In this document: positions 23,183-37,497 of the stretch, in pieces
Layout of the letters: each line of letters starts with the position of its first letter
How positions within the stretch are numbered: the first letter of the stretch is position 1
Origin: Candidatus Dormiibacterota bacterium
Lineage (GTDB): Bacteria; Chloroflexota; Dormibacteria; Aeolococcales; Aeolococcaceae
Length of the DNA stretch: 64,000 bases
Direction of reading: 5' to 3'
NCBI GenBank assembly: GCA_019245575.1
Contig: JAFARE010000004.1
Location: 1-64,000, forward strand
Translations under genes and position numbers: made by a program
Notes under the pieces: model-generated
The model's database searches: none
What the model saw: the letters and a program-made list of their open reading frames with translations, nothing else
What the model was told of the DNA's origin: nothing

Positions 23183-24427
23183 ATGGCCGGCACGCATCTC
23201 ATCGGTCTGCTGCTTGGGGTGGAGGAGGACTGGCCGGGCGCCTTCGAGTCGCTGCTGCGCCGCCTCGACCCGGCGATCACGGTTGACGGTGAGACGCACC
23301 GGTTCGCCACGGAGCGCGTGACCATCGAGCCGTTCAACCTGCGCGCCGTGCCGCGGTACTCGCTCGTGATCGACCGCCTCGCCTGGTGGTACGACATGCC
23401 TCGCGAGTGGCTGAAGAAGGTGACGCTGATGAACCCCGTGCACCTGCTCAACAATCCGTTCACGTTCGAGGCGATGCAGAAGCACGCGGCCTACTGCGCG
23501 ATGATCCGGCTCGGGCTGAAGGTCCCCGAGACCTGGATGCTCCCCAACAAGAAGCCGCCGGCCAACCCTCGCTTCGAGGGCACCGCGCAGCGGTACCTGC
23601 GCTACTTCGACCTTGACGAGGTGGCACGCGCCGTCGGGATGCCGCTGTACATGAAGCCGTTCGACGGCGGCGCCTGGGTAGGGGTGAGCCGCGTCGAGGA
23701 CACGGCGACGCTGCACCGCGCCTACGACGAGTCGGAGGAGCGGCTGATGCACGTGCAGGCATCGGTGGACGGTTACGACGCGTTCGCGCGCAGCCTCGGA
23801 GTGGGCGCCGAGGTGATGGTGATGAACTTTCACCCAGAGCGGCCGATGCACGACCGCTACTCCGTCGACTACAACTTCCTGAGCCCCGAGGTGGGCGAGG
23901 AGGTCGTGAGCATCCTGCGCATCGTCAACGGCTTCTTCCGCTGGGAGCTCAACAGCTGCGAGACGCTGGTGCGCGGCAGCGAGGTGGTGCCCATCGACTA
24001 CGCCAACGCCACGCCGGACCTCGCAATCACGAGCCTGCACTACTACTTCCCCTGGGCAATCCGCGCCCTGGTGAAGTGGGTCATCTTCTGCTGCGTGACG
24101 GAGCGGCGCCAGACCGTCGACATGGACACCCAGCGGTACTTCGCCATCGCAGATCGCGACGACCTCAGCTATGCGGAGAAGATCAAGCGCTACCGCGCGC
24201 TCGCCGACGAGCAGCTCCAGGTGGAGCGGTACCACGAGTTCTGCGCGCGGCACCTGCCCAACATCGACGAGGTGACGCTCAGCTGGGTGGAGAGCGACGA
24301 GTTCGACCGCCTCGTGGTGGACACCGTGCGCAGCACGTTCCCGGCGCACGAGCACGAGCAGTTCATCGCGCATTTCCGCGGCCTGCTGGAGCTGTGGGCC
24401 AAGGATCAGCGCGCGCTGGTCGCGTAG
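23183..24427 (+). CDS. Divergent ATP-grasp-like ligase (RimK-like)
   Basis: A 414-residue protein unlike the three other ligases in this locus. The core shows an ATP-grasp pattern. MPLYMKPFDGGAWVGVSRV (Lys158) corresponds to the lysine plus glycine-rich loop of the ATP-binding half. WELNSCETLVRGSEVVPIDY followed by ANATPD corresponds to the acidic metal-binding strand. The N-terminal 120 residues would be a pre-ATP-grasp domain. A conserved NPVHLLNNPFTFEAMQKHA segment lies between them. It is followed at 15 bp by the GCS2 ligase, an adjacency that suggests joint action on one product. The reaction (acid plus amine plus ATP) is inferred from the fold only. Confidence 0.72.
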   Translation: MAGTHLIGLLLGVEEDWPGAFESLLRRLDPAITVDGETHRFATERVTIEPFNLRAVPRYSLVIDRLAWWYDMPREWLKKVTLMNPVHLLNNPFTFEAMQKHAAYCAMIRLGLKVPETWMLPNKKPPANPRFEGTAQRYLRYFDLDEVARAVGMPLYMKPFDGGAWVGVSRVEDTATLHRAYDESEERLMHVQASVDGYDAFARSLGVGAEVMVMNFHPERPMHDRYSVDYNFLSPEVGEEVVSILRIVNGFFRWELNSCETLVRGSEVVPIDYANATPDLAITSLHYYFPWAIRALVKWVIFCCVTERRQTVDMDTQRYFAIADRDDLSYAEKIKRYRALADEQLQVERYHEFCARHLPNIDEVTLSWVESDEFDRLVVDTVRSTFPAHEHEQFIAHFRGLLELWAKDQRALVA

Positions 24428-24442
24428 GATGCGTCGCTGAGC

Positions 24443-25615
24443 ATGCCGATCCAGTTCGCTGCCAGCCCGCGACCAACCATCGGCGTCGAGGTCGAGCTCG
24501 AGCTGGTCGACGGGAGCACGCGCGAGCTGGTGAGCGCCGCCGCGTACGAGATCCTGACCGAGATGAAGAGCAAGCACGCCGACGGCGTGCATCCCAAGGC
24601 CAAGTCGGAGCTCCTGCAGTCGACGGTCGAGATCATCACGGGCATATGCGGGACCGTGCGCGAGGCATACGCCGATCTGGCTGCGACGCTCGACGAGCTG
24701 CGCACGTACACCGACCGCGAGGGCGTGCAGATCATGTGCTCGGGCACGCACCCGTTCAGCGACCCGGCGAAGCAGCGGATCACGCCCGATCCCCGCTACA
24801 TCCGCCTGGTGGACGAGATGCAGTGGCCGGCGCGGCAGATGCAGATCTTCGGCATCCACGTGCACGTGGGCGTGCGCAGCGGCGAGAAGGCGATCGCGAT
24901 GGTCAACGCGCTGTCGGGCTACATCCCGCACTTCCTCGCGCTGAGCGCGTCGAGCCCGTACTGGATGGGGCACGACACCGGGCTCGCCTCGTGCCGCTCC
25001 AAGGTGTTCGAGGGATTGCCCACGGCAGGGCCGCCCTGGCAGCTCACCGGCTGGGCCCAGTTCGAGCGGCTCATGGACACGCTGATCGCGGCGCGCACCA
25101 TCAGCAGCATCCGTGAGATCTGGTGGGACATCCGGCCCCATCCGGGCTTCGGCACCATCGAGCTGCGCATCTGCGACGGCATCCCCACCTTGCGTGAGAT
25201 CGCGGTCGTCGCGGCCATCAGCCAGTGCCTGGTGCACCGTTTCGACACCATGATCGACCGCGGTTACTCGCTGCCGACCACCCGAGCCTGGCTGGTGCGC
25301 GAGAACAAGTGGCGCGCCGCGCGCCACGGCCTTGACGCGCACATCGTCGTGGACGAGGAGGGCACCACCGTGCCGCTGCGCGACGCCATCCAGGAGATGG
25401 TCGAGGACCTCATGCCGGTGGCGGCGCGGCTGGGGTGCACCGAGGAGCTGCGCCGCACGTTCGAGGTGATGGAGCGCGGCCCCAGCTACATCCGGCAGCG
25501 TGAGGTGGTGGCGGCCGGCGGCACGCTCACCGATGTGGTCGACGGCCTGGTGCAGGAACTGCGCAGCGACCAGCCGGCACCGCGTCCGGCAGCGCTCAGC
25601 GCCGCGGCGACCTAG
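24443..25615 (+). CDS. GCS2-family carboxylate-amine ligase (YbdK-like)
   Basis: A 390-residue member of the GCS2 branch of glutamate-cysteine ligases, which form gamma-glutamyl or similar amide bonds using ATP. The start PTIGVEVELELVDGSTREL holds the metal-binding Glu cluster. QIFGIHVHVGV near residue 135 and FGTIELRICDGIP near 235 are family hallmarks. Genuine glutathione or ergothioneine-pathway neighbours are absent; instead it sits among ATP-grasp ligases, so an undetermined carboxylate and amine are more likely than Glu plus Cys. It ends 9 bp from the convergent ATP-grasp gene. A TAGGAT hexamer lies 12 bp before the ATG. Confidence 0.88.
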   Translation: MPIQFAASPRPTIGVEVELELVDGSTRELVSAAAYEILTEMKSKHADGVHPKAKSELLQSTVEIITGICGTVREAYADLAATLDELRTYTDREGVQIMCSGTHPFSDPAKQRITPDPRYIRLVDEMQWPARQMQIFGIHVHVGVRSGEKAIAMVNALSGYIPHFLALSASSPYWMGHDTGLASCRSKVFEGLPTAGPPWQLTGWAQFERLMDTLIAARTISSIREIWWDIRPHPGFGTIELRICDGIPTLREIAVVAAISQCLVHRFDTMIDRGYSLPTTRAWLVRENKWRAARHGLDAHIVVDEEGTTVPLRDAIQEMVEDLMPVAARLGCTEELRRTFEVMERGPSYIRQREVVAAGGTLTDVVDGLVQELRSDQPAPRPAALSAAAT

Positions 25616-25624
25616 CTCGGTAGC

Positions 25625-26845
25625 TCAGGCCGCGTAGAGACGGAGGTCGCTGGCGAACCGGTCCGATATCTCGATGCACCGCTCCAGCTCGGGATGGCGC
25701 ACGAAGACGATGCCGTCCGAGAGCAGCGTCTGCATCCAGTCGCGCCGCGGCGACCCCACCGGCAGCAGGTCGATGGCGCAGACCCACTCGTCGTACTCCG
25801 CGAGCAGGTGGGAGAGTCCGTCGATGCGACGGATGTGCCCCTGCCCCTCGGCCCGCTTGGTGATCGAGGCCGCGTTGTACGCGCGCGTCACCGGCTGCGA
25901 GAGGGAGCCGTGCGTCACCGCCTCGGCCCAGCGCTGGAACAGATCGGCATCGGTGGTGAAGTTCATCAGGTCCACCGTGCGCGCACCCGGGGGCCGCGAA
26001 GCGATCTCGCCGAACACCACCTCGCCGTCGGCCTTGCGGTACCACTCCATGTGCGTGAACCCGTCCGTGAACCCCATCGCGCGCAGCACGGCCCGCCCCA
26101 TCGCGCGCCCACCGGCGAGATAGTCGACGTCGATGGTGCGCAGCGCGAGGGTGATCGGGCTGATCCACTCCAGCGAGCGGGCGATGAGCGGCCGGGGCCG
26201 GTACCAGCACATGTTCTCGAAGAGCGGCTCGCCGCGCGCGCAGATCGTGTCGTAGGTGAACTCCTCCGCGTCGACGAACTCCTCGACGCTCACCTGCGGC
26301 ACGTGGAGGAGGCGCGGCATGACCTGCTCCAGCTCCGCGATTGAGTCCACGCGGTACGTGTTGGCCGATCCCGCGCCGGCGATCGGCTTGACGATGAGGG
26401 GAAAGCCGATGCGCTCCGCCGCTTCGCGGACTCCGGCCGCGGTGGTCGTGCTCTCGTGGTAGGGCGTGCGGATCCCGGCGGCGTCGAGCGTGCGCTTCAT
26501 CGCCTCCTTGTCGCGGAACGGAATCGTCTGGCCCACCGTCATGCCGGGCAACCGCAGCGCCTCGCGGATGCGTGCGGCGAGGATCATGGTCGGCTCCCAC
26601 AGCGACTCCACCTGGTCGATGGGTGTGTGGTCGGCGCGGCGCATCACCTCGTGCACGATGCCCAGCTCGTCGCTGAACGACGGCACCTGCCAGTAGTCGG
26701 CGAGGTGCTCGCGCGCCATTTGGGGCAGCGCGTGCACGGACTGGTCGCCGACGCCGATCACGCGCGCTCCCGCGTAGGCGAGGCCGCGCGTGAAGAGCGG
26801 CATCTCGCCGGGGTAGCCGGGGGAGATCAGCAGCACGCTGCCCAT
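25625..26845 (-). CDS. ATP-grasp ligase, paralogue B (406 residues)
   Basis: One of three paralogous ATP-grasp proteins of nearly identical length. An N-terminal Rossmann-like pre-grasp domain comprises residues 1-100 (VLLISPGYPGEMPLFTRGLA). FRDKEAMKRTLDAAGI near residue 111 marks entry to the ATP-grasp. IGFPLIVKPIAGAGSANTYR (about 146-165) is the ATP-binding strand and loop, and VEEFVDAEEFTYDTIC follows. HMEW (265-268) and FGEIASRPPGAR (278-289) form the metal-binding region. The glutamate is kept, but the usual E-x-N-P-R is replaced by E-[IV]-x-x-R-P-P-G. It starts 4 bp after paralogue C stops, so the two form an operon. It should activate a carboxylate as acyl phosphate and join it to an amine. 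Confidence 0.85.
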   Translation of the reverse strand: MGSVLLISPGYPGEMPLFTRGLAYAGARVIGVGDQSVHALPQMAREHLADYWQVPSFSDELGIVHEVMRRADHTPIDQVESLWEPTMILAARIREALRLPGMTVGQTIPFRDKEAMKRTLDAAGIRTPYHESTTTAAGVREAAERIGFPLIVKPIAGAGSANTYRVDSIAELEQVMPRLLHVPQVSVEEFVDAEEFTYDTICARGEPLFENMCWYRPRPLIARSLEWISPITLALRTIDVDYLAGGRAMGRAVLRAMGFTDGFTHMEWYRKADGEVVFGEIASRPPGARTVDLMNFTTDADLFQRWAEAVTHGSLSQPVTRAYNAASITKRAEGQGHIRRIDGLSHLLAEYDEWVCAIDLLPVGSPRRDWMQTLLSDGIVFVRHPELERCIEISDRFASDLRLYAA

Positions 26846-26849
26846 GACG

Positions 26850-28070
26850 TCAGGCCCCGGCCAGCTCGACGCGGGCCACGTCGACGACGCGGCGCAGCGC
26901 CGCTTCCACCACTGACGTTTCCGGATGGCGCAGGATCACGTAGCCCTCGCCCTCGTAGGTGCCGCTCGGTGCCTGCCCGGCCGCGGGCAGGCGGGCTTCG
27001 ACCACAAGGTCGCCCAGCTCGTGCTGCAGGGTGTCGAGGCCATGGATCGCCCGCACCCGTCCCGATCCCTGCCCGCGCAGGTACGCCGCGCCCACCGCGT
27101 AGTGGCGCTCCGGCGGGTCGAATGCCCCGAAGATCTCGAGGCCGGCCCAGGCGCGATACATGTCGACGTCGTGGGAATAGGACATCAATGTCATGAACTG
27201 GGCGCCCGGCGGACGAGCGGCAACCTCGGAGATGGCGATGCCGTCGGCACCGCGGTTGAACCACTCCATGTGGCTGAGCCCGGTGTCCATGCCGAGGACA
27301 CGAAGCGCGCGCTCGCCCGCCTCGCGGATGGCGTGATAGCCGCCGATCTCGCGAGGCAGGAGCACCGCCCACTGGATCCAGGGATTCTCCAGCACCTCCA
27401 GCGGCGTGGGGAGGTAGCGGGAGACGGAGTGCCAGACGAGGCGTCCGCCGGCCATCACGCTGTCGAAGCTGTGCTCCTCGCCGCTGACGGCCTGCTCGAG
27501 CAGCGCCGGCGCGTCCGGCGATGGCGCGTCGAACCGCAGCCAGCCGTGCAGCTGGCCCTCGGTGTCGACGCGGAACGTGCCCCGAGCACCGGCGCCGGCG
27601 GGCGGCTTCACCACGAGCGGCAGGCCGAGTGCGCGCGCCGCCCGCAGCGCTTCCTCAGGTGAGGCCGCCAGCGCGTGCCCGGCGCACGGCACGCCGTGGT
27701 CGCGCATCACCGACTTCATGCGCGCCTTGTCGCGGAAGTTCTGCGCCGCCTCGACGCGCATGCCGGCGATGTCGAACCATTCGCGGACGCGTGCCAGCGG
27801 CACCTGCAGCTGCTCCAGCGTGCCGATGACACGATCCACGCCGCCGAGATGGCGGCGGAACCGTTCGACGGCGCCGGCGATCTGCGCTGCATCGGTGCCG
27901 TCGTCGATCCTGTAATGGCCGGCGAGCTGCGACCGGATTGCCTCAGGCAGCCGCTCCTGGGGGTCCTGGCTGATCAAGCCCACCTGCGCCCCGGGCAGCG
28001 ACGCGGCGGCTCCGATGAATCGATTGGTCGCCTCCAGCAGGAAGGGGGCGACGAACACCGCGTTGGGCAT
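26850..28070 (-). CDS. ATP-grasp ligase, paralogue C (406 residues)
   Basis: The second of the three paralogues. It has the same architecture: an N-terminal domain (NAVFVAPFLLEATNRFIGAA), then FRDKARMKSVMRDHGV near residue 113, LGLPLVVKPPAGAGARGTFR at about 149-168, HMEW at 267-270 and SEVAARPPGAQ at 281-291. The ATG at 28070 is chosen because it restores the family length and lies 6 bp downstream of a TACACT -10 element; the frame continues upstream into the divergent gene. By eye it shares motifs rather than overall identity with B and D, which suggests different substrates. Confidence 0.85.
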   Translation of the reverse strand: MPNAVFVAPFLLEATNRFIGAAASLPGAQVGLISQDPQERLPEAIRSQLAGHYRIDDGTDAAQIAGAVERFRRHLGGVDRVIGTLEQLQVPLARVREWFDIAGMRVEAAQNFRDKARMKSVMRDHGVPCAGHALAASPEEALRAARALGLPLVVKPPAGAGARGTFRVDTEGQLHGWLRFDAPSPDAPALLEQAVSGEEHSFDSVMAGGRLVWHSVSRYLPTPLEVLENPWIQWAVLLPREIGGYHAIREAGERALRVLGMDTGLSHMEWFNRGADGIAISEVAARPPGAQFMTLMSYSHDVDMYRAWAGLEIFGAFDPPERHYAVGAAYLRGQGSGRVRAIHGLDTLQHELGDLVVEARLPAAGQAPSGTYEGEGYVILRHPETSVVEAALRRVVDVARVELAGA

Positions 28071-28076
28071 GGCGGG

Positions 28077-28103
28077 AGTGTAGGCCGCGGCTCCGCCTAC
28101 ACT
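28077..28103. promoter_or_regulatory. Palindromic bidirectional promoter
   Basis: A perfect 9-bp inverted repeat, AGTGTAGGC / GCCTACACT, around a 9-bp centre fills most of the 40-bp gap between divergent genes. Each arm supplies a TACACT -10 hexamer to one gene: on the minus strand 6 bp before the ATG at 28070, and on the plus strand (28098-28103) 7 bp before the ATG at 28111. The symmetry could also serve a dimeric regulator that controls both directions. Confidence 0.6.
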
Positions 28104-28110
28104 CGGCGCG

Positions 28111-29304
28111 ATGGCGGAGGCGATCAGGAGGTGGACGGGGCCGGCGGCGTGGACCGCGGCCCTCGCGGTGCTCGCGTACACGGCGCTGCACCACATGCTC
28201 ACGATGCCCGTGGCGGCGCACGCGTGGAATGACACCTACGTCTATCTCGAAGCAGCGCAGCGGTTCCTGGCCCATCCCGCGCACCTGTACGACGGCGCGC
28301 TCGCGCAGCTCCACCGGGCCACAGCGCAGAACGCATTCCTGTACCCGCCCCTTGGCATTCTGCCCTTTCTCGCGCTGGTGCCACTGCAGCACGCCGCCGG
28401 GATGCCACTTGCCGCCGGCGTATGGACCGTTGTGGACACGGTGGCGCTTGCCGCGGCAGTGGTGCTCTTCAGCCGCCGCGCCGGGTGCAGCTGGGCGCTG
28501 AGCGGCGTGGTTCTGCTGATCGCGGCGCTCTCGCTGCCCGCGCAGTGGGAGATCAACTCCGGTCAGGTCGACGGCGTGGAGCTGCTCCTGCTCGCGCTGT
28601 CGTTGCGCCACGCTGAGCGCGCCGTCTCCGGCGTGTGGCTCGGTCTCGCCGTCGCGTTCAAGCCCATCGCTGTGGTCGTGCTGCTGCTTCCGCTGCTGCG
28701 GCGGCAGCCACAGGTGGCGGCGGTGGCGTGCGGCGTGGCGCTTGCGGTGAATGCGGTGTGGATCCCCTTCCTCGGACTCCCCGTGGCGAGCGAGTATCTG
28801 ACCCGCGTGCTGCCGTTCACGATGTTCAGCGTCGTGCACGATCCCAACAACATCTCGCTTGCGACGCGGCTGCAGGACATCCTCGGCGGCGTGCAGGTCA
28901 CAAAGCGAACGCCGGCAGGCTTCGCGGTGCCGCATCCGGTCGACGCGCTGGCGCTGCTGTGGACGATCCGCGTGCTCACGCTGGCGGTGTGGGCGCGCAC
29001 CGTCACGCGGCATGGCGTCGACGACGTGACGGCGCTTGCCGTCACGCTGGCGACGGTGCCCCTGCTGGCGGCCACGCTCTGGCCGCACTACTTCCTGTTC
29101 CTGCTGCCACTCGGCATCGTGCTGATCCGTTCGCCCCTCGTTGCCGCGCGCATCGCCGCCTGGGCCGGGCTGACCCTGACGGTGTACCGATGGAGGTCGG
29201 AGGTCCTCTGGGTCAGCGTGCCCGTGCTCTGGTGCGCGGCGCTGGCCGCGACGCAGGGGGAGAGGATGAGCGCCCGGATAGCCACCCCTGCCCATGCCCA
29301 TTAG
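28111..29304 (+). CDS. GT87-like (DUF2029) membrane glycosyltransferase
   Basis: A 397-residue integral membrane protein with about ten hydrophobic helices. The GT-C features of the GT87/DUF2029 group (polyprenyl-phosphate-mannose mannosyltransferases) are visible: acidic loop HAWNDTYVYLEAAQRFLAHP after TM1, FLYPPLGILPFLALV, and NSGQVDGVELLLLALSL, matching the family's GQVN motif. It is divergent from ligase C across the palindromic promoter and 12 bp upstream of ligase D, so it probably decorates or exports the product on a lipid carrier (inference). Confidence 0.78.
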   Translation: MAEAIRRWTGPAAWTAALAVLAYTALHHMLTMPVAAHAWNDTYVYLEAAQRFLAHPAHLYDGALAQLHRATAQNAFLYPPLGILPFLALVPLQHAAGMPLAAGVWTVVDTVALAAAVVLFSRRAGCSWALSGVVLLIAALSLPAQWEINSGQVDGVELLLLALSLRHAERAVSGVWLGLAVAFKPIAVVVLLLPLLRRQPQVAAVACGVALAVNAVWIPFLGLPVASEYLTRVLPFTMFSVVHDPNNISLATRLQDILGGVQVTKRTPAGFAVPHPVDALALLWTIRVLTLAVWARTVTRHGVDDVTALAVTLATVPLLAATLWPHYFLFLLPLGIVLIRSPLVAARIAAWAGLTLTVYRWRSEVLWVSVPVLWCAALAATQGERMSARIATPAHAH

Positions 29305-29307
29305 GAT
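29302..29307 (+). promoter_or_regulatory. -10 element TAGGAT
   Basis: TAGGAT overlaps the TAG stop of the glycosyltransferase gene and ends 9 bp before the ATG of ligase D at 29317. Confidence 0.35.
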
Positions 29308-29316
29308 CACCGGCGC

Positions 29317-30540
29317 ATGAACGTCATCTTCATCGAGCCTGCCTTCCCGCCCAACCAGCGCGAGTTCGTGCGTGGCCTGGCGGCCGTCGGCGCCACCGTG
29401 ATCGGCATCGGAGAGCGCTCCCTCGACCAGATGGATGCCGACCTCAGGAGCTGGATGCTGCACTACCACCAGGTGGGCAACGTGACCGATGTGCAGCAGC
29501 TCGCCGGTGCGGTGCGCTGGGTGCAGGAGCGGCTGTGGGTGGACCGGCTCGAGTCGACAATCGAGGCACACACGCTCGCGGCTGCGCAGGTCCGCGAGTG
29601 GTGCAACATCCCCGGGACGTCGGTGCGCACCACGTACCTCTGCCGCGACAAACCTTCGATGAAGGACACGCTGCGTGAGGCCGGCGTGCCCACTGCGCAG
29701 TCAGCCGGGGCGGACAGTGCGGCGGAGGTGTGGGCGTTCGCGGACTCGGTCGGTTTCCCGCTCATCCTCAAGCCGCGCGCAGCCGCGGGAGCGAGCGGCA
29801 CACGCCGGGTGGACAGCCGCGAGGAGCTGGAGCGGGCATTGGGGGAGCTGGGCGCGAGTGGCTCGGACTCGATCGCGGTGGAGGAATTCGTGGAGGGGCA
29901 CGAGGGCTTCTACGACACCATCTGCATCGACGGGCGGCCGGTGTACGACTTCATCTCGCACTACGACCCCAACGTGCTGGAGGCGATGCGCGAGCGGTGG
30001 ATCAGCCCGCAGTTCATCGCCACCAACCGCATCGACTACTCGGAGGCGTACGCAGAGGTGCGCGTGATGGGCAAGCGCGTCATCGACGCCCTCGGCATCG
30101 GCACCTCCGCCACGCACATGGAGTGGTTCTTCGGGCCCAAGGGGCTGCGCTTCAGCGAGATCGGCTGCCGCCCGCCCGGGGTCCGCGCCTGGGACCTGTA
30201 CGCGGTGGGCAACGACATCGACATCTATCGCGAGTGGGCCAATGCGGTGGTGCACGCGCACGTGCAGGCGGGCCTCTCGCGCCGCCTGGCCGCGGGCATT
30301 GTGGCGCTCCGTCCTGACCACGACGGGCGCATCAGCCATTACGACGGCGCCGACGCCATCCAGCAGCGTTACGGGCCGCACATCATCGACGCGTACCTGC
30401 CCTCGCCGGGCACGCCCACGCAGCCGGTTGAGGCCGGGTACATGGCCAACGCGTGGGTGCGCATGGCGCACCCCGACTACGACACGCTGCGCGGCATGCT
30501 CAACGACGTCGGCGAAACGCTGCACGTGCGCGCCGCATGA
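29317..30540 (+). CDS. ATP-grasp ligase, paralogue D (407 residues)
   Basis: The third paralogue, first in a tightly coupled run of seven plus-strand genes. The N-terminal domain is NVIFIEPAFPPNQREFVRGL. CRDKPSMKDTLREAGVP lies near residue 109, VGFPLILKPRAAAGASGTRR at about 145-164, and VEEFVEGHEGFYDTIC follows. HMEWFF is at 267-272 and FSEIGCRPPGVR at 279-290. The E-[IV]-x-x-R-P-P-G motif is shared with B and C. Its stop overlaps the S51-like gene (ATGA). Co-expression with a peptidase-like hydrolase and esterases suggests the product is an amide or peptide that is later trimmed, released or turned over. Confidence 0.85.
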   Translation: MNVIFIEPAFPPNQREFVRGLAAVGATVIGIGERSLDQMDADLRSWMLHYHQVGNVTDVQQLAGAVRWVQERLWVDRLESTIEAHTLAAAQVREWCNIPGTSVRTTYLCRDKPSMKDTLREAGVPTAQSAGADSAAEVWAFADSVGFPLILKPRAAAGASGTRRVDSREELERALGELGASGSDSIAVEEFVEGHEGFYDTICIDGRPVYDFISHYDPNVLEAMRERWISPQFIATNRIDYSEAYAEVRVMGKRVIDALGIGTSATHMEWFFGPKGLRFSEIGCRPPGVRAWDLYAVGNDIDIYREWANAVVHAHVQAGLSRRLAAGIVALRPDHDGRISHYDGADAIQQRYGPHIIDAYLPSPGTPTQPVEAGYMANAWVRMAHPDYDTLRGMLNDVGETLHVRAA

Positions 30541-31466
30541 CGGCGGCGATTCTGCTCGGGCCGCAGCCACCGGCGCCGCGGCTGGACGCGGACGTCGCTG
30601 CGCTGGGCGTCGATGGTCCGGTCGCGCTGGTCACGGCCGGCTACGAGGAGGCCGAGCGAAACGACGCCCACCTGGACCGTGCCCTGGGCGGTGGCACGCG
30701 CAACCTGGGCTTGTACGGCAGGCGGCTCGACATCCTCGAGAGCGACACCGACTTCGCCGCGGCGCTGCACCGCCTGCGCATCGAGCTGGCTGAACAGCAG
30801 ACGCTGTACCGCGCGCGCCTCGTCCACGGGCTCGCCGCCGTCGACGCGGTGCGGCGTCTGGGCGGCAGCTCGCGGCGCAGCCTGGGCACGCAGCTCGACG
30901 ACGCCATCAGCGACGTGCGCACCCTCGACGACAACCATGCGGCGGCGATGGCTGCCGCGGTGCGCCGTTTCGAGGACGAGTGGCCGGTGCACGAACGCGA
31001 CGTGATCCTCGCCCACCGCGGCGCGGTTGCGGCACAGCTCGAGGAATGCGCGGCGATCGCCGTCGCGGGTGGTCATGTGGGCGTGCTCCTCGAGTGTGTC
31101 TGGCTCTGCGGTGTGGGCCCGGCGACGGTGCGCATGCCGCTCATCGCCTGGTCCTCCGGCGCGATGGTGGTCACGGAACGCGTGATGGTGACCGACGAGC
31201 ACGAGATCGGGGCGCGGCCGGCAGAGGTGATGGGAACAGGGAGCGCGGCGGTGTGCGGCGTGGTGGTGATGGTGGACTCGCAGGCGCGGCTGCGCATCGA
31301 TGACGGCGACAGCCTCGCCCTCCTGGCGCGGCGCTGCGCACCGCGCGCGTGCGTGCTGCTGGACGATGGCGACCGCCTCGCGTGTGCCGACGGTGCGCCC
31401 GATCTGGACAGCGCGCGCGTCATCGGCCTCGACGGCGTCATCCGCAGGCCAGCCGAGGCTGCGTGA
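30537..31466 (+). CDS. S51-like serine hydrolase (cyanophycinase/PepE type)
   Basis: A 309-residue protein resembling the class-I-amidotransferase-like S51 peptidases. It opens with a short strand, AAILLGPQPP, followed by VALVTAGYEEAE, the family's first core strand and loop. AIAVAGGHVGVLLECV corresponds to the GGNQ segment. MPLIAWSSGAMVV (residues 200-212) matches the nucleophile elbow of PepE/cyanophycinase (WSAGA), making Ser206 the likely nucleophile. Residues about 60-165 form a helical insertion not found in standard cyanophycinase. Known relatives cleave cyanophycin or Asp-X dipeptides, which fits a locus of amide-forming ligases. It is coupled to both neighbours by 4-bp overlaps. Confidence 0.68.
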   Translation: MTAAILLGPQPPAPRLDADVAALGVDGPVALVTAGYEEAERNDAHLDRALGGGTRNLGLYGRRLDILESDTDFAAALHRLRIELAEQQTLYRARLVHGLAAVDAVRRLGGSSRRSLGTQLDDAISDVRTLDDNHAAAMAAAVRRFEDEWPVHERDVILAHRGAVAAQLEECAAIAVAGGHVGVLLECVWLCGVGPATVRMPLIAWSSGAMVVTERVMVTDEHEIGARPAEVMGTGSAAVCGVVVMVDSQARLRIDDGDSLALLARRCAPRACVLLDDGDRLACADGAPDLDSARVIGLDGVIRRPAEAA

Positions 31467-32647
31467 TCGTACGGCGCGCACGCTCGGGCCGCGCAGTCGC
31501 GCGGCTGCGAGAGGCTGCCGGCTCGCCGGAGGATGTGGAGCGCATCCTGCAGGAACAGCCGGTGCCGATCGTGGAGGGCACGCTCTCCACATTCGTCTGG
31601 CGGGGTGAGGCGGACGCGGTTGCCGTGGAGCACCGCATCGTTGGATTGCAGGAGCCGCTGCCACTGCGCCGCATCCGCAACAGCGACGTGTGGTTCGCCA
31701 CCGTCGAGCTGCCGCCCGGGTCGCGCGTGGAGTACCGCATGCTGCTGCGGTACGGCGACCACATCGAGAACGTGCTCGACCCGCGCAACCCGCGGCAGGT
31801 GTCGGATCCCAGCACCACGAAGTCCGTGCTCGAGGCGGGCGGCTACGCAACGCCGGACTGGGCGTTGCCTGACCCAGATGTTGTGCCCGGGGAATTGATC
31901 GAGACGCGGGTTGCGAGCAAGCACCTGGGACGCGACGTCCGCCTCACGCTGTATCTGCCCATGCGGATGCGGCGTCACGACCGCCTTCCCGTGGTGGTGA
32001 TGCACGACGGCAGCGACTTCATCCGCTACGGCGGCGTGACCACGGTGCTGGACAACCTCATGCACCGGCGGCTGATGGCGGACGCCGTGGTGGCGCTGCT
32101 GCATGCGGGCGATCGCTTCGTCGAGTACACCGGCAATCCCGCGCACGCGCGCTTTCTGACCGCCGAGCTCATCCCCCAGCTGGAGCGGTCGCTCCCGCTG
32201 CGCGGCGACCCGCATGGCCGCATCCTCGCCGGTGCCAGCCTGGGCGCCATCGCCGCCCTCTCGGCGGCCGCGCGAGCGCCGGGCTTCTACGGAGGGCTGC
32301 TGCTGCAGTCGGGGACGTTCATCTACTCGTCGGTGGGGCGGGGGAGCGGAGCGCCGCCACCCTGGTGGCCCCCGGCCGGCGCGCCGGCGCTGGAGCGCGT
32401 GCTGCGATTCGTCAACAAGCTGCGCGCTGATCCGGCGTTCCTGTGCGACCGCATCTTCCACAGCCTCGGGGCATTCGAGCCCTCGGCCGACCGCAACCGC
32501 GCCATGGCGGCGACGCTGCGCGCGATGGCCGCGTCCTACCGGATGGAGGAGGGGCTCGACGGGCACAACTGGATCAGCTGGCGTGACTGCCTGCACGACG
32601 GGTTCGCGTGGCTGCTGCCCGGCGACGCCCGGTCCATCTACCCCTGA
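31463..32647 (+). CDS. Enterochelin-esterase-like alpha/beta hydrolase
   Basis: A 394-residue enzyme with an N-terminal immunoglobulin-like domain of the Fes/CBM48 type (residues about 40-140, TFVWRGEADAVAVEHRIVG and VWFATVELPPGSRVEYRML). An esterase-D alpha/beta hydrolase domain follows: LPVVVMHDGSDFIRYGG, the nucleophile elbow ILAGASLGAIAALSAA, and a C-terminal GHNWISWRDCL supplying the His. Fes hydrolyses trilactone siderophores. No siderophore synthetase is present, so an ester or amide made by this locus is the more plausible substrate. The GTG start overlaps the S51-like stop. Confidence 0.85.
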   Translation: MIVRRARSGRAVARLREAAGSPEDVERILQEQPVPIVEGTLSTFVWRGEADAVAVEHRIVGLQEPLPLRRIRNSDVWFATVELPPGSRVEYRMLLRYGDHIENVLDPRNPRQVSDPSTTKSVLEAGGYATPDWALPDPDVVPGELIETRVASKHLGRDVRLTLYLPMRMRRHDRLPVVVMHDGSDFIRYGGVTTVLDNLMHRRLMADAVVALLHAGDRFVEYTGNPAHARFLTAELIPQLERSLPLRGDPHGRILAGASLGAIAALSAAARAPGFYGGLLLQSGTFIYSSVGRGSGAPPPWWPPAGAPALERVLRFVNKLRADPAFLCDRIFHSLGAFEPSADRNRAMAATLRAMAASYRMEEGLDGHNWISWRDCLHDGFAWLLPGDARSIYP

Positions 32648-32677
32648 CCCCATGCGTTTGGGCGAGACTTCGCAGCC

Positions 32678-33409
32678 GTGAAGCTGGTTCAGCGCTGGTA
32701 CTCGGAGCGGATGTACCGCGATGTGACCGTGGCCCGCTGGGGCCATTTCGGCCTGCCCGTGATCGTCTTTCCGACCGCGGGCGGCGACGCGGAGGAGATC
32801 GAGCGCATGCACCTGGTGGACGCGCTCGGTGGCCTGCTCGAGGCCGGCCGCATCAAGGTGTACTCCTGCGACAGCACCGCGGGCGCGGTGATCATGCGGG
32901 GTGAGGGCTCACCCGGCTTTCGCGGCGCAATGCTGAAGGCGTACCAGGAGTTCGTCCGCTACGAGCTGATTCCCGCGATCCGCGCGGACTGCAACTGGCC
33001 GGATGCCACCGTGATCACGGCGGGCGCGTCGGTGGGGGCCTTCAACGCCGTGGCCGCGCTCTGCCGCTTTCCCGACGTGGTGCACGCCGCTGTGGGCATG
33101 AGCGGTACATACGACCTGGCGCGCTTTGTCGGCGACGGCGCCGGCATGGAGCTGTACTTTGCCACGCCGCTGTACTTCCTGCCCGGCCTCGACGGCGACC
33201 ACCTGAGCCAGCTGCGGCATCGCTTCGCCATCCTCGCGTCGGGCCAGGGGCGCTGGGAGAACGCGGGCGAATCCTGGCGCATGGCCGACGTGCTGGGGAC
33301 CAAGGGCATCCCCAACCGCGTGGACGCATGGGGTCACGAGTACGACCACGACTGGCCCACCTGGCGGCGGATGCTGCCTCAGTATTTGACAGAGTTGACC
33401 GGAGGCTGA
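32678..33409 (+). CDS. Esterase, alpha/beta hydrolase fold
   Basis: A 243-residue single-domain esterase. LPVIVFPTAGGDAEEIER starts the fold. VITAGASVGAFNAVAAL is the nucleophile elbow (GxSxG, Ser in GASVGA). HAAVGMSGTYDL follows, and the C-terminal WGHEYDHDWPTW supplies the His. It resembles the esterase domain of the preceding gene but lacks the N-terminal domain, so the two may process the same compound at different bonds. The start is GTG at 32678. It is 30 bp from the upstream gene and 2 bp from the next. Confidence 0.82.
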   Translation: MKLVQRWYSERMYRDVTVARWGHFGLPVIVFPTAGGDAEEIERMHLVDALGGLLEAGRIKVYSCDSTAGAVIMRGEGSPGFRGAMLKAYQEFVRYELIPAIRADCNWPDATVITAGASVGAFNAVAALCRFPDVVHAAVGMSGTYDLARFVGDGAGMELYFATPLYFLPGLDGDHLSQLRHRFAILASGQGRWENAGESWRMADVLGTKGIPNRVDAWGHEYDHDWPTWRRMLPQYLTELTGG

Positions 33410-33411
33410 GC

Positions 33412-33999
33412 GTGGCGTCCAGCTTCCAGGCCACATACCTCGCCGGTGCGCCGCCGTGGGACATCGGCCGGCCGCAGGGCATCTTCGTGCATCTCGTCGA
33501 CGCGGGCGCGGTGCGCGGGCGCGTCATCGACCTGGGCTGTGGCACCGGCGAGAACGCGCTGTACGCGAGCGCTCACGGTTTGGACGTGATGGGCGTGGAC
33601 CTTGCGCCGGAGGCCATCCGGCAGGCGCGTGCCAAGGCGCAGGAACGCGGCGCTGCCGTGGACTTCCGGGTTGCCGACGTTCTCGAACTGAACGGGTACG
33701 GCGGCACGTTCGATGCCGCGATCGACAGCGGGATGTTCCACACGCTCCGCGAGACAGATCGCCCGCGGTATGCGAGCAGCGTGCACGGTGCTCTGCGTCC
33801 GGGCGGCCGCCTGTTCATCGCCTGCTTCAGCGAGCACGAGCCGGGTGACTGGGGCCCGCGCCGCGTCACGCAGGCGGAGATCCACGAAACATTCCGCGAC
33901 GGCTGGACGGTGGACTCGATCGAGGCGGCGGTGTTCGACACGACGCTCGCCGAGGCGTCGAAGGTGAGCGCGTGGCTGGCGTCGCTGACATCGCGGTGA
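33412..33999 (+). CDS. SAM-dependent methyltransferase, thiopurine-MT-like
   Basis: A 195-residue methyltransferase. FQATYLAGAPPWDIGRPQ at the N-terminus is characteristic of the small thiol/tellurite/thiopurine methyltransferase group. Motif I is VIDLGCGTGENALYAS, followed by MGVDLAPEAI; DAAIDSGMFHTL is post-motif II. The GTG start has a strong GGAGG ribosome-binding site overlapping the upstream stop. It probably methylates the product or a thiol/amine precursor of the locus, but it could also be an independent detoxification enzyme. Confidence 0.82.
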   Translation: MASSFQATYLAGAPPWDIGRPQGIFVHLVDAGAVRGRVIDLGCGTGENALYASAHGLDVMGVDLAPEAIRQARAKAQERGAAVDFRVADVLELNGYGGTFDAAIDSGMFHTLRETDRPRYASSVHGALRPGGRLFIACFSEHEPGDWGPRRVTQAEIHETFRDGWTVDSIEAAVFDTTLAEASKVSAWLASLTSR

Positions 34000-34259
34000 G
34001 CGTGCCGCGCACCGAGGGCGCGGTGACATGGTTCACCGTGCGGGTTGGCGGACGCTCATACGACGTCGGGGTGACGGCCGAGGACGCGGGGCGGCTGGCG
34101 CCGGGTGTGGACCCAGCGACGCTGGTGCGCGAGTCATTCGCGTTCTTGCTCGAGCGCGAGTCGCCGGCATCGATCCTGGCGAGGTTCGATCTGCCCGTCA
34201 TCGCCAGTTACTTCCCCGAGTATCCGGCCGAGATCAAGCGGAGGCTGGCACATGGCTGA
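33996..34259 (+). CDS. Small hypothetical protein
   Basis: An 87-residue protein. It begins VSVPRTEGAVTWFTVRVGGR, has a beta-rich N-terminal half and a helical C-terminal half (LVRESFAFLLERESPASILA). No family was recognised. The GTG at 33996 overlaps the methyltransferase stop (GTGA) in the style of neighbouring genes; the longer start at 33972 overlaps by 28 bp. Its own stop overlaps the MBL gene by 8 bp. Confidence 0.6.
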   Translation: MSVPRTEGAVTWFTVRVGGRSYDVGVTAEDAGRLAPGVDPATLVRESFAFLLERESPASILARFDLPVIASYFPEYPAEIKRRLAHG

Positions 34260-34986
34260 GGTGGTCCCGGGCGTGCGCAAGCTCAGCAACGGCGTGAGCA
34301 ACTGGTACGTGGTCGGCGAGGGTGGCAAGCTCACGCTCGTGGACGCCGGCAAGCCCTCGGACTGGAAGGCGTTGCTGCGTGAGCTGGAGGTGATGGGCCT
34401 GCCGCTGGACAGCGTGGACTGCGTGCTGCTCACGCACGCGCACAGCGACCACACCGGGTTCGCCGAGCGAGCCCGCACTGAGGCCGGCGCGACCGTGCGC
34501 GTGCACCCGGCGGACGCGGAGGCGGCGCGATCCGGCAAATCGGGCAAGGCGGAATCCGGCGTGGCGCGGTATCTCGTGCACCCCGAGGCGTACCGCACCC
34601 TGTTCGGGCTGATGGCGGGCGGCGGCCTGCGCATCGTGCCGGTGGCGCAGGTGTCGACGTTCGCGGAGGGGGAGGCCATCGACGTGCCCGGCCATCCGCG
34701 CGCCGTGCACGTGCCCGGCCACACGCCGGGCAGCTGCGCGCTGTGGTTCGAGGCGACGTCAGTGCTGTGCACGGGCGACGCGCTGGTGACGCGCAACCCC
34801 ATGACCGGACGGCGTGGTCCCCAGATCATGCCGTCAGGGCTGAATGTGAGCTCACAGGACGCACTGGATTCCCTGACCGCGCTGGAGGAGACACGCGCGA
34901 CACTCGTGCTGCCGGGCCACGGTGAGCCGTGGCGCCAGGGCGCCGAGGCAGCGGTGCGCGCGGCGCGCGCCGCGGGAATGTCGTAG
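34252..34986 (+). CDS. MBL-fold metallo-hydrolase
   Basis: A 244-residue metallo-beta-lactamase-fold enzyme. THAHSDHTG (residues 61-69) holds the first metal ligands. VPGHTPGSCALW gives the next His, LCTGDALVT the bridging Asp, and LPGHGEP the last His. All ligands for a dinuclear site are present. This group includes glyoxalase II-like thioesterases and lactonases. It is the last gene of the coupled run starting at 29317; within the locus it might hydrolyse a thioester or cyclised intermediate (inference). Confidence 0.85.
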   Translation: MAEVVPGVRKLSNGVSNWYVVGEGGKLTLVDAGKPSDWKALLRELEVMGLPLDSVDCVLLTHAHSDHTGFAERARTEAGATVRVHPADAEAARSGKSGKAESGVARYLVHPEAYRTLFGLMAGGGLRIVPVAQVSTFAEGEAIDVPGHPRAVHVPGHTPGSCALWFEATSVLCTGDALVTRNPMTGRRGPQIMPSGLNVSSQDALDSLTALEETRATLVLPGHGEPWRQGAEAAVRAARAAGMS

Positions 34987-35030: not shown

Positions 35031-35600
35031 ATGCGACGCTTCGCCATCCTCAGCGGGGTCATCGCCTTTGTCGCTGACGGCGTGTACGTCTACATCGTTA
35101 CGCGTCAGGGGGGCGACGACGGAACGCTGCGCGTCCCATTCGTGATGGCATTCATCGCTGTGTGCGGCATCGTTTGCCTGGTCAGCGTGGTGGTTCCGCT
35201 GAAGGGTGCCCGCTTGGTGCTGCTCAGCTTCAGCAGCATCGGCATGCTGGTGCTCGGGTTTCTCGCGGCGTTCTCCATCGGTCTGCTGCTGTGGCTGGCG
35301 GCTGTGCCTGCGCTGATCGCATCCTTCCGGCTGCTCGTCTCGCCGCTGCCACGCATCCTCTCGTTCGTCACGGGCGGTGTCATCGCGCTGCTCGTATTGG
35401 CCGCGGGAATGTGGGCGACACAGTTCCCCGTCCGGTGTCCGCCGGGAGGCGCGAGCAGCGGCTCAGGCGTCGGGTTTCTGACCGGCGACTACCACTGGAC
35501 CTGCGTCAACGGCAAGCTCACGGTCGCGCCCGGCGAGTGCCAGAGCTGGAGTGGCAGCGGGTCGCCGAACGGCCAGACGACGGTCATCTGCAATCACTGA
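35031..35600 (+). CDS. Membrane protein with extracytoplasmic Cys-containing tail
   Basis: A 189-residue protein with four membrane helices in residues 1-130 (FAILSGVIAFVADGVYVYIV, then FVMAFIAVCGIVCLVSVVV and others). A polar C-terminal tail has three Cys and Trp/Gly/Ser-rich sequence (DYHWTCVNGKL, then ECQSWSGSGSPNG). No family was recognised. It has its own -10 element. Its last 138 bp overlap the 3' end of the convergent glycosyltransferase gene. Confidence 0.6.
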   Translation: MRRFAILSGVIAFVADGVYVYIVTRQGGDDGTLRVPFVMAFIAVCGIVCLVSVVVPLKGARLVLLSFSSIGMLVLGFLAAFSIGLLLWLAAVPALIASFRLLVSPLPRILSFVTGGVIALLVLAAGMWATQFPVRCPPGGASSGSGVGFLTGDYHWTCVNGKLTVAPGECQSWSGSGSPNGQTTVICNH

Positions 35601-36782
35601 GGCAACCACGACGACCAACGCAGCCAGCAGGGCGGCTGAGGCAGCGATTCCCTGGGCTGAAGTTGACAGCACCCGGGGCAGATCCACGCCGAAGTCCGCG
35701 ATGAGCGTGGCCAGGAGAACGAATGCGGGTGCCCAAAGTGCGGATGTGCGCGGCGCTCGATCCATTGCCAGCGCCCAGATGGCGGCGAAGACGAACGGCT
35801 CCAGCATGTAGTAGGCGAACGCGGTCTTCGCCAGCATGGGAAACGTGACCGCCGCGATCGCGAGCATCGCCAGCAGGCGTTCGCCGCCGGCGCGGCCTTC
35901 GCGCGCGTAGCGCCGCAGCCCCAGGCAGGCCGCCACCAGGACGGCGGCCACGATGAGCGTGTCGCCGTGCTGCACGGCGGCCGCGATGGGGGAGTCCCGC
36001 AGCGCATACCAGAGCGTGTCGCCGTCGATGGGCAGCGCGCCGCGATACGCGAGCAGCGAATGGACGACGTTGCTCGTGTCTGTGATGAGAAATGGCGCGA
36101 TGCCCGCGGCGGCAGTAAGGAATGCTGCGCCTAGCGTGATAGCGGTGCGCCGCCACCGTCCGTTCGTCAGGAGGAACATCGCGATGGCGATGAGGTACAG
36201 GAGCGTCGTGCTACGCGTGAGCAGCGCAAGGCCGAGGGCCATGCCGGCGACGCCGGCGGGGCGCTCCTCCAGCAACAGGCGGACGCCGAGCAGGACCAGC
36301 CACAGCTGCAGTGGCATCTCGACGTGGCCGTAGCCCGTGGTCGCCAACCAGAGTGGCGGCGCAAGCAGCACGGCCCCGGCCGCGATCAGCGGAACGCGAT
36401 CGTCCAGGCGGTTCCCGCGAAGCCGCCGAACGGCTCGCGCCGCTTCCAGCGCGAGCAGCAGCGTGAACATGCTGAACACGGCCAGGGTCAGCGCGGCCCG
36501 CGGCACCGGCTGCACCGCGAATCCCAGCTGTCGGGCGGCCCACGCGACCAGCGACAGTGGCAGCAGGCTCAGGGGACCGTTCGCGTTCGGGTAATCAGCC
36601 TGCCCGGCGACGCTGTACGCGTGCAGCGGATCGCCGTGCGCCGCCACCAGCGCCGACGGCCAGAAGCTGATGTCGAGGTCGGTGCGCGCGCTGATCAGCA
36701 GCGCGCTGGCCGCGGATGCGCCAGCGTAGCCCACCGCCCCTGCCACCCCCAGAGCCAGCCGCCGGCGCCCGTTTGGATCCAT
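35463..36782 (-). CDS. GT-C type membrane glycosyltransferase (GT87-like)
   Basis: A 439-residue polytopic protein with about ten helices. It follows the GT-C plan: acidic loop ARTDLDISFWPSALVAAHGD after TM1, DYPNANGPLSLLPLSLVAW, then YGHVEMPLQLWLVLLGVRLL. It resembles mannosyltransferases using polyprenyl-phosphate sugars. The ATG at 36782 gives MDPNGRRR. The C-terminal 45 residues past the last helix are low-complexity and antisense to the convergent membrane protein. It is the second glycosyltransferase in the locus and may work with the one at 28111, or be unrelated. Confidence 0.75.
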   Translation of the reverse strand: MDPNGRRRLALGVAGAVGYAGASAASALLISARTDLDISFWPSALVAAHGDPLHAYSVAGQADYPNANGPLSLLPLSLVAWAARQLGFAVQPVPRAALTLAVFSMFTLLLALEAARAVRRLRGNRLDDRVPLIAAGAVLLAPPLWLATTGYGHVEMPLQLWLVLLGVRLLLEERPAGVAGMALGLALLTRSTTLLYLIAIAMFLLTNGRWRRTAITLGAAFLTAAAGIAPFLITDTSNVVHSLLAYRGALPIDGDTLWYALRDSPIAAAVQHGDTLIVAAVLVAACLGLRRYAREGRAGGERLLAMLAIAAVTFPMLAKTAFAYYMLEPFVFAAIWALAMDRAPRTSALWAPAFVLLATLIADFGVDLPRVLSTSAQGIAASAALLAALVVVVASVIADDRRLAVRRPAATPALALAGRDRELAVDAGPVVVAGQKPDA

Positions 36783-36817
36783 CGCTTGAATGGTGACAAG
36801 AGGAGTGATTACCGGAC

Positions 36818-37174
36818 GTGGGTCGCCGAATCCGCCGGGTTGGCTGCCCAAATTCCGATGATCCGCGGCGCCGCGAGGGTCGCCATCAGGTCGTCGCGGC
36901 CTTCGACACCGAGCGGGAGTTTCGAAAGTCGTTTCGAGAGCTAACCCGCGATCTGGAACGTCGGCGCGCTGAGGGTGCGCCTATCGATGCTCGGGAGCAC
37001 TACGCGAGCATCATTCTCGCGCCCGGTGCCCGCCGCCGAGAGAAGGATGCGCGGCTGCTGCGACAGGCCTCTCGGCGAGGCGTGGCGTTGTCTGAGGATC
37101 TCGTCAAGCAACTCGATGTGCCACCCAGCGCCGTCGCTCTACGCTCCGTGGCTCGGAGGGGTCGCCGCACCTGA
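36818..37174 (+). CDS. Hypothetical protein, uncertain
   Basis: A 118-residue Arg/Glu-rich ORF (FRKSFRELTRDLERRRAEG, then REKDARLLRQASRRGVALSE). Base composition is less GC-rich than in the flanks and no family was recognised. The GTG start is weak, and the real start may lie further in, near VVAAFDTERE. It sits between the glycosyltransferase and the toxin-antitoxin genes, in what looks like a foreign islet. It could be a fragment. Confidence 0.35.
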   Translation: MGRRIRRVGCPNSDDPRRREGRHQVVAAFDTEREFRKSFRELTRDLERRRAEGAPIDAREHYASIILAPGARRREKDARLLRQASRRGVALSEDLVKQLDVPPSAVALRSVARRGRRT

Positions 37175-37255: not shown

Positions 37256-37497
37256 TGGCGTCCTCCACTAGAACCCAGGTGTATTTCACGGCGTCCCAGC
37301 GTCGCCGTCTCGACGTCATTGCAGAGCGCCGAAAGGTCCGGATGGCCGAGGTGGTTCGCGAGGCTGTGGACGCCTACCTGGGAGGGATGGAGGCAGAAGA
37401 GGAGGCGGCCGTCTTGGCGGAAACCTTCGGCGCGTTACCGGACCTCACCGTCCCAAGCCGAGATGAGTGGGACCGTGCGCGTCCTCGTCGACACTGA
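37255..37497 (+). CDS. Ribbon-helix-helix antitoxin (VapB/CopG-like)
   Basis: An 80-residue protein. Residues 6-50 form a ribbon-helix-helix DNA-binding domain: strand TRTQVYFTASQRRRLDVIA, then RKVRMAEVVREAVDAYLGG. The acidic C-terminal part (ALPDLTVPSRDEWDRA) is the usual toxin-binding arm. The downstream PIN-domain gene overlaps by 35 bp, the standard antitoxin-toxin order. ATG 37255 is chosen over 37237 because the promoter element lies between them. Confidence 0.8.
   Translation: MASSTRTQVYFTASQRRRLDVIAERRKVRMAEVVREAVDAYLGGMEAEEEAAVLAETFGALPDLTVPSRDEWDRARPRRH

Follow-up and report, generated by a model that had tools for sequence, protein, structure and literature searches.

Closest described systems

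In the L-amino-acid ligase pathways, represented by rhizocticin (RizA), bacilysin (BacD), BL00235 and phosphonoalamide (PnaB/PnaC), stand-alone ATP-grasp enzymes form successive amide bonds without an NRPS; the phosphonoalamides, for instance, are tripeptides made by two ATP-grasp ligases in sequence (PMC11867202). Glutathione and glutathionylspermidine biosynthesis likewise relies on a GCS2-type first ligase, followed by one or more ATP-grasp ligases. Neighbourhoods that mix ATP-grasp enzymes, other amide ligases and peptidases were reportedly predicted by Iyer et al. in 2009 to yield novel metabolites (a study cited in PMC8939145), and the locus described here is of the same general kind.

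The new analysis concerns a gene set of uncultured Dormibacteria from soil and permafrost, found in a window of 64,000 nucleotides (the whole stretch of DNA that was analysed). Five carboxylate-amine ligases (AG1, a GCS2/YbdK-type enzyme, AG2, AG3 and AG4) lie within 23183-33409, beside an orphan protein with S51-like motifs and two PF00756 esterases (Fes-like and Est2). The data are best explained by a model, to which we assign a probability of roughly 0.7, in which this core encodes a dedicated ribosome- and NRPS-free pathway to a short amide-linked, peptide-like metabolite.

Unlike the L-amino-acid ligase pathways, to whose RizA/BL00235/BacD family AG2-4 are assigned below, the locus combines three such ligases with a GCS2 enzyme and a second kind of ATP-grasp, carries no head-group biosynthesis genes (e.g., for a phosphonate) and conserves two esterases and an orphan protein. 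In contrast to glutathione and glutathionylspermidine biosynthesis, no model identifies its AG1 as GshB, the locus has three additional ligases of the dipeptide type, and an MshC-like thiol enzyme is encoded elsewhere in genomes that carry such a locus. No description of this gene combination was found in searches of openly accessible papers, in agreement with the first-pass annotation, which had recognized no known pathway in it.

Locus layout and conservation

The genes and the one intergenic element of interest are as follows:

23183..24427, plus strand: AG1, divergent ATP-grasp ligase, 414 aa (orthologues and ATP-grasp residues)
24443..25615, plus strand: GCS2/YbdK-type carboxylate-amine ligase, 390 aa (NF010043, PF04107)
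25625..26845, minus strand: AG2, assigned to the L-amino-acid-ligase (dipeptide ligase) family of ATP-grasp enzymes, 406 aa (PF18130 above cut-off; profile; active-site residues)
26850..28070, minus strand: AG3, assigned to the same family, 406 aa (PF02786 above cut-off; profile)
28071..28110, no strand: divergent gap between AG3 and GT87 (inverted repeat and TACACT boxes, read by eye)
28111..29304, plus strand: GT87-type membrane glycosyltransferase, lineage-specific, non-core (PF09594, E 7.6e-20)
29317..30540, plus strand: AG4, assigned to the L-amino-acid-ligase family, 407 aa (AF2 model, RizA fold, orthologues)
30537..31466, plus strand: orphan protein of ~310 aa with S51-like motifs (no family match)
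31463..32647, plus strand: Fes-like esterase with an enterochelin-esterase-like N-terminal region (PF00756, E 7.8e-22)
32678..33409, plus strand: Est2, short PF00756-type esterase (28.5 bits against a cut-off of 22)
33328..33999, plus strand: class-I SAM methyltransferase, peripheral, with two possible starts, 33328 (in overlap with Est2) and GTG 33412 (PF13649, E 2.3e-21)
34252..34986, plus strand: MBL-fold hydrolase, peripheral (PF00753, E 5.9e-27)

All genes named by the first-pass annotation are long open frames, and its GCS2 ligase, AG2-4 and its two esterases are borne out by family matches, as are its GT87, methyltransferase and MBL calls; the core genes can be taken as real because they have conserved orthologues. 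Its continuous run of 4-bp overlaps is seen in part: AG4 and the S51-like gene overlap at 30537-30540, and the S51-like gene and Fes at 31463-31466, but Fes and Est2 are separated by 30 bp and the MBL gene lies 252 bp downstream of the methyltransferase. An Rfam search of the window returned no match and no riboswitch.

The eight core genes recur with identical order and orientations (AG1 and GCS2 forward, AG2 and AG3 reversed, then AG4, the S51-like gene, Fes and Est2 forward) in 13 genomes, which span four genera of a single Dormibacteria family; every genome with the full form is a member of this family. Scattered homologues, the outcome that the first-pass annotation had set against its own proposal, are thus not what was found; moreover, the S51-like gene is confined to genomes with a window-type AG1 (Fisher p 4e-8 across 32 family genomes, uncorrected for kinship). 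A fourteenth genome, G205, which is sister to the window, carries the short form AG1-GCS2-AG4-Fes on a contig that stops within Fes, and AG2, AG3 and the S51-like gene were not found anywhere in this 85% complete assembly. About half of the family genomes lack the locus; the assemblies examined are fragmentary. All eight genes are under purifying selection, with dN/dS of 0.03-0.24 except for a single AG3 value of 0.53, for which dS is only 0.013. The flanks are rearranged and the core is not: proC lies 5' of AG1 in some relatives and 3' of Est2 in others. An AG4-like/Est2-like pair recurs on its own in a further genome, G104.

A contig scan with GCS2, restricted to narrow patterns, returned only loci from Dormibacteria or from MAGs labelled 'Chloroflexi bacterium'. 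On plasmids, no AG1 homologue was found, and AG4 had only ~24-29% matches among those listed. The nearest plasmid GCS2 proteins are 46% identical (Nocardia, Tsukamurella), and the Tsukamurella gene has a superoxide dismutase gene on one side, iron ABC genes on the other and no ATP-grasp in its neighbourhood.

Ligases and hydrolases of the core

The GCS2 enzyme scores 575 bits against a cut-off of 409 for the curated equivalog model NF010043, 326 against 176 for TIGR02050 and 214 against 21 bits (E 3.5e-63) for PF04107. Its orthologues are 71-83% identical, and ligases of the same class are also found outside such clusters.

For AG2-4, a joint profile matches RizA (4wd3, E 3.9e-35), BL00235 (3vot, E 9.9e-26) and BacD (E 5e-19). 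The AF2 model of AG4 (pLDDT 87.6) has RizA 4wd3 as its best PDB fold (E 9e-29, TM 0.76), with RizA, BL00235 and BacD all among its top folds (TM 0.75-0.77). Across 11 sequences, the ATP-binding lysine K152, the metal-binding pair E269 and E281, and R285 of the ExxxR motif are invariant; as in BL00235, ExxxR is present and the Asn of ExN absent. Judged by these matches, AG2-4 are members of the L-amino-acid ligase family, with dipeptide synthesis as their predicted activity. Orthologues of AG4, which the short form also retains, are 72-79% identical. A recent tandem triplication of AG2-4 was considered and is ruled out, since the three are deep paralogues (30-34% identical to one another) and the tree places AG3 with an ATP-grasp of a different genome, G161 (support 0.998).

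AG1 has orthologues in 13 other family genomes (72-80% identity over matched parts) and ~30% homologues in ~49 genomes across the phylum, relative to which the window-type protein has its own C-terminal extension of ~110 aa. On its own, it matches no curated family above cut-off (best Pfam score 13.8 bits against 24). One homologue (L061) just passes PF02655 (23.6 against a cut-off of 23.2), and the family profile matches the D-Ala-D-Ala ligase 3r23 (E 1e-8). The conserved nucleotide and metal residues K158, G162-G163, E260, D272 and N275 are invariant between AG1 and 12 divergent homologues.

These distant homologues belong to a broad module, seen in other families of the phylum, of Est2-like, AG1-like, circularly permuted (CP) ATP-grasp and GCS2 proteins, sometimes with Fes, that has four functional classes in common with the window locus. 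A CP-ATP-grasp gene lies near AG1 in 19 of 19 broad AG1-family loci, GCS2 in 16 and Est2 in 12. The window locus differs in that its AG1 is only ~30% identical to the AG1-like protein, its GCS2 best fits NF010043 whereas one broad-type GCS2 best fits NF010039, it lacks the CP-ATP-grasp, and it has three L-amino-acid-ligase-type enzymes and an S51-like protein. Tblastn with five CP-ATP-grasp queries gave hits only in the broad-type locus L092; the 64-kb window and all window-type loci were negative. Because the ~30% kin of AG1 neighbour CP-ATP-grasp, GCS2 and Est2 genes phylum-wide, the window locus appears to be a lineage-specific expansion of a wider ligase module.

The S51-like protein has no Pfam or NCBIfam match and no significant sequence or fold match in the PDB, the fold model being weak past about residue 200. 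The annotation's S51-like call is tentative and based on peptidase-E/S51-like motifs: GGHVGVL and AWSSG are invariant, and a profile comparison with local S51 peptidases places both in register, at P = 0.19 (0.38 and 0.41 for unrelated controls). The usual catalytic His appears to be missing: no His is conserved in the stretch of eight orthologues that corresponds to the NPH motif, where the alignment is weak. Fes and Est2 are both assigned to the PF00756 esterases by model scores above cut-off and retained catalytic residues, namely the Ser of GASxG and the His of GHxW in Fes, and the Ser and HDW of Est2, which broad-type homologues share.

A proposed pathway and its alternatives

ATP-grasp enzymes act by ATP-driven formation of an acyl phosphate, which is then attacked by an amine. 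What we infer of the order of action, the substrates and the cellular role of a dedicated pathway is a scheme in which each ATP-grasp of the core would work in this way and the ligases would join carboxylates and amines sequentially into a short peptide-like amide. The common core of the product may come from GCS2 and AG1, since both classes co-occur in the broad module, and AG4 would attach one residue. A further sub-module, present in most lineages and jointly missing in one, could consist of AG2, AG3 and the S51-like protein and would add or trim residues. Fes and Est2 would act on the product in ester or thioester form, hydrolysing it for release, recycling or editing. The conserved core contains no dedicated transporter and no amino-acid-modifying enzyme.

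The absence of an exporter would also suit an intracellular compound, such as a low-molecular-weight thiol or a glutathione- or glutathionylspermidine-like cofactor, with GCS2 acting as a gamma-glutamyl-cysteine-type ligase, AG1 as a GshB-like second ligase, and the esterases and MBL protein as thioester hydrolases of adducts. GCS2 does fall in a 'glutamate--cysteine ligase' model, plasmid homologues of the broad-module CP-ATP-grasp are annotated as glutathionylspermidine synthase family, and PF00756 includes S-formylglutathione hydrolase. However, every family genome searched, with or without the locus, has a match to the MshC model TIGR03447, nearly always strong (273-403 bits, below the 485 cut-off, and not the same as a weaker, CysS-like one). 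This suggests that thiols are made by a pathway of their own and weakens the cofactor reading. The absence of the locus from about half of the family argues against a core cofactor, and three dipeptide-type ligases exceed the needs of such a thiol; we consider this explanation unlikely. An EgtD search revealed no ergothioneine pattern tied to the locus.

Alternatively, the ligases might tag a protein or macromolecule (RimK-like, or as a cell-wall or capsule peptide) rather than produce a free small molecule, with the S51-like protein and esterases removing the tag. The broad homologues of AG1 score weakly with the RimK model, the pairing of ligases and hydrolases is akin to tag/untag systems, and a GT87 gene adjoins in the window. 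Yet the closest kin of AG2-4 are free-amino-acid dipeptide ligases, the core has no conserved carrier protein, precursor peptide or polymer gene, and GT87 is not conserved, which leaves tagging distinctly unlikely. Finally, that individually acting, unrelated enzymes adjoin only through shared descent is very improbable: the single-family range and the varying GT87, methyltransferase, MBL and proC positions would fit a drifting neighbourhood, but the core is kept beside rearranged flanks, AG2, AG3 and the S51-like gene are jointly missing from G205, the broad module brings the AG1, GCS2 and Est2 classes together again in an arrangement of its own, and the AG4-like/Est2-like pair recurs alone in G104. 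Common descent within one family could nonetheless account for part of the core synteny.

Within the preferred reading of a dedicated amide-forming pathway, the five distinct amide ligases and the orphan S51-like protein may, tentatively, constitute an NRPS-independent system for a previously unknown oligopeptide or peptide-amine typical of a single Dormibacteria family, alongside simpler modules of three ligases phylum-wide; we would put this at a little under even odds. If true, the five-ligase set would rank among the richest NRPS-independent peptide pathways, and its enzymes would be useful for making amides. The broad module suggests that the wider phylum has a class of metabolites not yet described. 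A soil survey covering Dormibacteraeota relied on antiSMASH, with no mention of ATP-grasp (PMC7298704). Since standard cluster mining is built on NRPS, PKS and RiPP signatures, a locus without them would easily be missed.

Peripheral genes

GT87, the methyltransferase and a DinB-like ORF are all missing from the corresponding position in relatives, and the MBL gene adjoins Est2 in only two of them (G151 and G204). This variable presence rules out GT87, the methyltransferase and the MBL protein as core tailoring enzymes, and the glycosylated or methylated product that the first-pass annotation had considered possible is therefore unfounded. A sigma-70 consensus scan of the gap between AG3 and GT87 found nothing. 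On reading by eye, the gap (28071-28110) contains a perfect 10-bp inverted repeat and a TACACT box near each start codon, possibly marking divergent leaderless promoters.

The window lies on contig 45 of a 2.6-Mb genome in 46 contigs, whose closest named relatives are Candidatus Dormiibacterota genomes, including Ca. Aeolococcus gillhamiae and Ca. Amunia macphersoniae. Open reading frames and, except for AG1 and the S51-like gene, family searches bear out the gene list that the first-pass annotation had drawn up for the locus.

Genes of the ligase locus (window coordinates, strand)
23183-24427, +, AG1, divergent ATP-grasp
24443-25615, +, GCS2, carboxylate-amine ligase
26845-25625, -, AG2, ATP-grasp
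28070-26850, -, AG3, ATP-grasp
28111-29304, +, GT87, glycosyltransferase
29317-30540, +, AG4, ATP-grasp
30537-31466, +, S51-like, orphan protein
31463-32647, +, Fes, esterase
32678-33409, +, Est2, esterase
ends 33999, +, methyltransferase
34252-34986, +, MBL, MBL-fold hydrolase

The 4-bp overlaps proposed for the run of hydrolase genes hold for AG4/S51-like and S51-like/Fes, and for no other pair. Nearby lie a second membrane protein, weakly GT87/PMT-like (35466-36851, -), and, by eye, a VapC-type PIN-domain toxin (37319-37825) with a short ORF upstream (36818-37174).

GCS2 scores 575 bits against the 409-bit cut-off of a curated equivalog model. Taken singly, AG2-4 match generic ATP-grasp models weakly; their joint profile best matches the characterised L-amino-acid ligases RizA and BL00235, with BacD close behind. 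RizA is also the top structural match of an AF2 model of AG4 (pLDDT 87.6), and Lys152, Glu269, Glu281 and Arg285 are invariant across the three. AG1, the most divergent ligase, shares ATP-grasp residues with its homologues elsewhere in the phylum, and a profile of these homologues reaches D-Ala-D-Ala ligase. As for the hydrolases, Fes and Est2 are probably active, judging by sequence, because both retain the GASxG serine and a near-C-terminal histidine, which broad-type homologues also keep. The S51 call is tentative: GGHVGVL and AWSSG occur at peptidase E spacing, and the NPH histidine lacks a conserved counterpart. When profiles of the protein and of local S51 peptidases are compared, the two motifs line up, though not significantly (P 0.19; unrelated controls 0.38 and 0.41). 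The protein could have an S51 fold that has degenerated or been put to a new use.

The annotation had set a conserved neighbourhood against scattered homologues, and the former is what is found. Window-type AG1 occurs in 14 of 32 family genomes searched (five genera), and in 13 of these, from four genera, mostly incomplete metagenome assemblies and several with the locus split over contig ends, order and strands are identical. The S51-like gene occurs only in the same 13 among 50 genomes of the order, and in a 201-genome phylum sample only in the three with window-type AG1; its co-occurrence with AG1 within the family gives Fisher p 4e-8, counting genomes as independent despite their relatedness. 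Since the scan of named genomes used narrow patterns, carriers in other phyla may exist. GT87, a DinB-like ORF and the methyltransferase are absent from this position in the relatives' loci compared, G151 and G204 are the only relatives with MBL next to Est2, and proC precedes AG1 in some genomes and follows Est2 in others; the flanks thus move while the core stays. All eight core genes, including the S51-like gene, show dN/dS of 0.03-0.24 (Nei-Gojobori), with one exception: AG3 of G151 versus G224 (L119 14187-15413, L120 12434-13660) gives 0.53, resting on a dS of only 0.013, against 0.27-1.02 in neighbouring genes. AG3 alone was probably recently exchanged or converted between these two genomes.

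Elsewhere in the phylum, AG1 homologues (~30% identical) sit in a compact module in other families. Specifically, in 19 such loci, several ending at contig edges, a circularly permuted ATP-grasp of 450-460 residues lies next to or near AG1 in all 19. Close to AG1, 16 of the loci also hold a GCS2, 12 an esterase of the Est2 type and three one of the Fes type. The permuted ATP-grasp distinguishes this broad module, being found neither in the window nor in window-type loci, and no family genome searched carries both AG1 forms. In G104, a distant member of the phylum, an AG4-like ATP-grasp and an Est2-like esterase make up a two-gene unit (L186:8420-10336). With the broad module, this pair shows the functional classes of the window locus recurring together in separate arrangements, the best indication that they belong to a single pathway. 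A ~1020-residue frame (L185:6978-10046) ends in an AG3-like ATP-grasp (36% identity) that makes up its last third; the remainder matches no Pfam family, and the frame may be a fusion.

A short form occurs in G205, sister of the window in the GCS2+AG4 tree (support 0.984), where AG1-GCS2-AG4-Fes directly abut and the contig stops within Fes. Genome-wide searches of this 85% complete genome did not find AG2, AG3 or the S51-like gene. G205 is nested among full-form carriers, which favours loss as a block over original absence, and we infer that the three form a sub-module working together.

In the most likely pathway, GCS2 and AG1, which recur jointly, would make the first amide bonds of a core compound; AG4 would then lengthen it, and AG2/AG3 would extend it further in most lineages. 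The esterases would hydrolyse an ester or thioester intermediate, or the product as it is turned over. A transporter is missing from the conserved core, a slight argument for an intracellular compound. Production of a thiol cofactor is possible, yet MshC-model matches occur in 31 of 31 family and order genomes searched, and in nearly all family genomes the match is strong though below cut-off, locus present or not. One such mycothiol-ligase-like match (G000:C34:34915-36090; ~390 bits versus 485), with counterparts across the family, is distinct from a second, CysS-like copy; a mycothiol-like thiol in these Dormibacteria is possible. The ligases could also tag a macromolecule, but no acceptor is conserved. 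That the genes cluster by chance is improbable, given the fixed core order and strands between moving flanks and the recurrence of the functional classes.

NRPS-independent ligase clusters are an established kind, and Iyer et al. 2009 reportedly made a general prediction of neighbourhoods mixing ATP-grasp ligases, other amide ligases and hydrolases. That work is cited in PMC8939145. Sequential ATP-grasp ligation is described for the phosphonoalamides: dipeptides formed by a first ligase are coupled to a head group by a second (PMC11867202). E-64 biosynthesis in fungi combines an ATP-grasp enzyme and an amide bond synthetase (PMC12568646). Neither the gene combination nor the orphan S51-like protein nor the link to the broad module appears to have been described in the literature searched.

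TAGGAT boxes lie shortly upstream of the AG4 start codon (29305-29316 and the final bases of GT87) and of the GCS2 start codon (24425-24442). Before AG4, GGTAGGATC is present in all eight relatives shown (loci L112, L117, L119, L120, L122, L124, L125 and L128). Both boxes are candidate promoters for leaderless transcripts. Between the divergent starts of AG3 and GT87, positions 28071-28110 hold a perfect inverted repeat, GAGTGTAGGC-N9-GCCTACACTC, with a TACACT box inside each arm.
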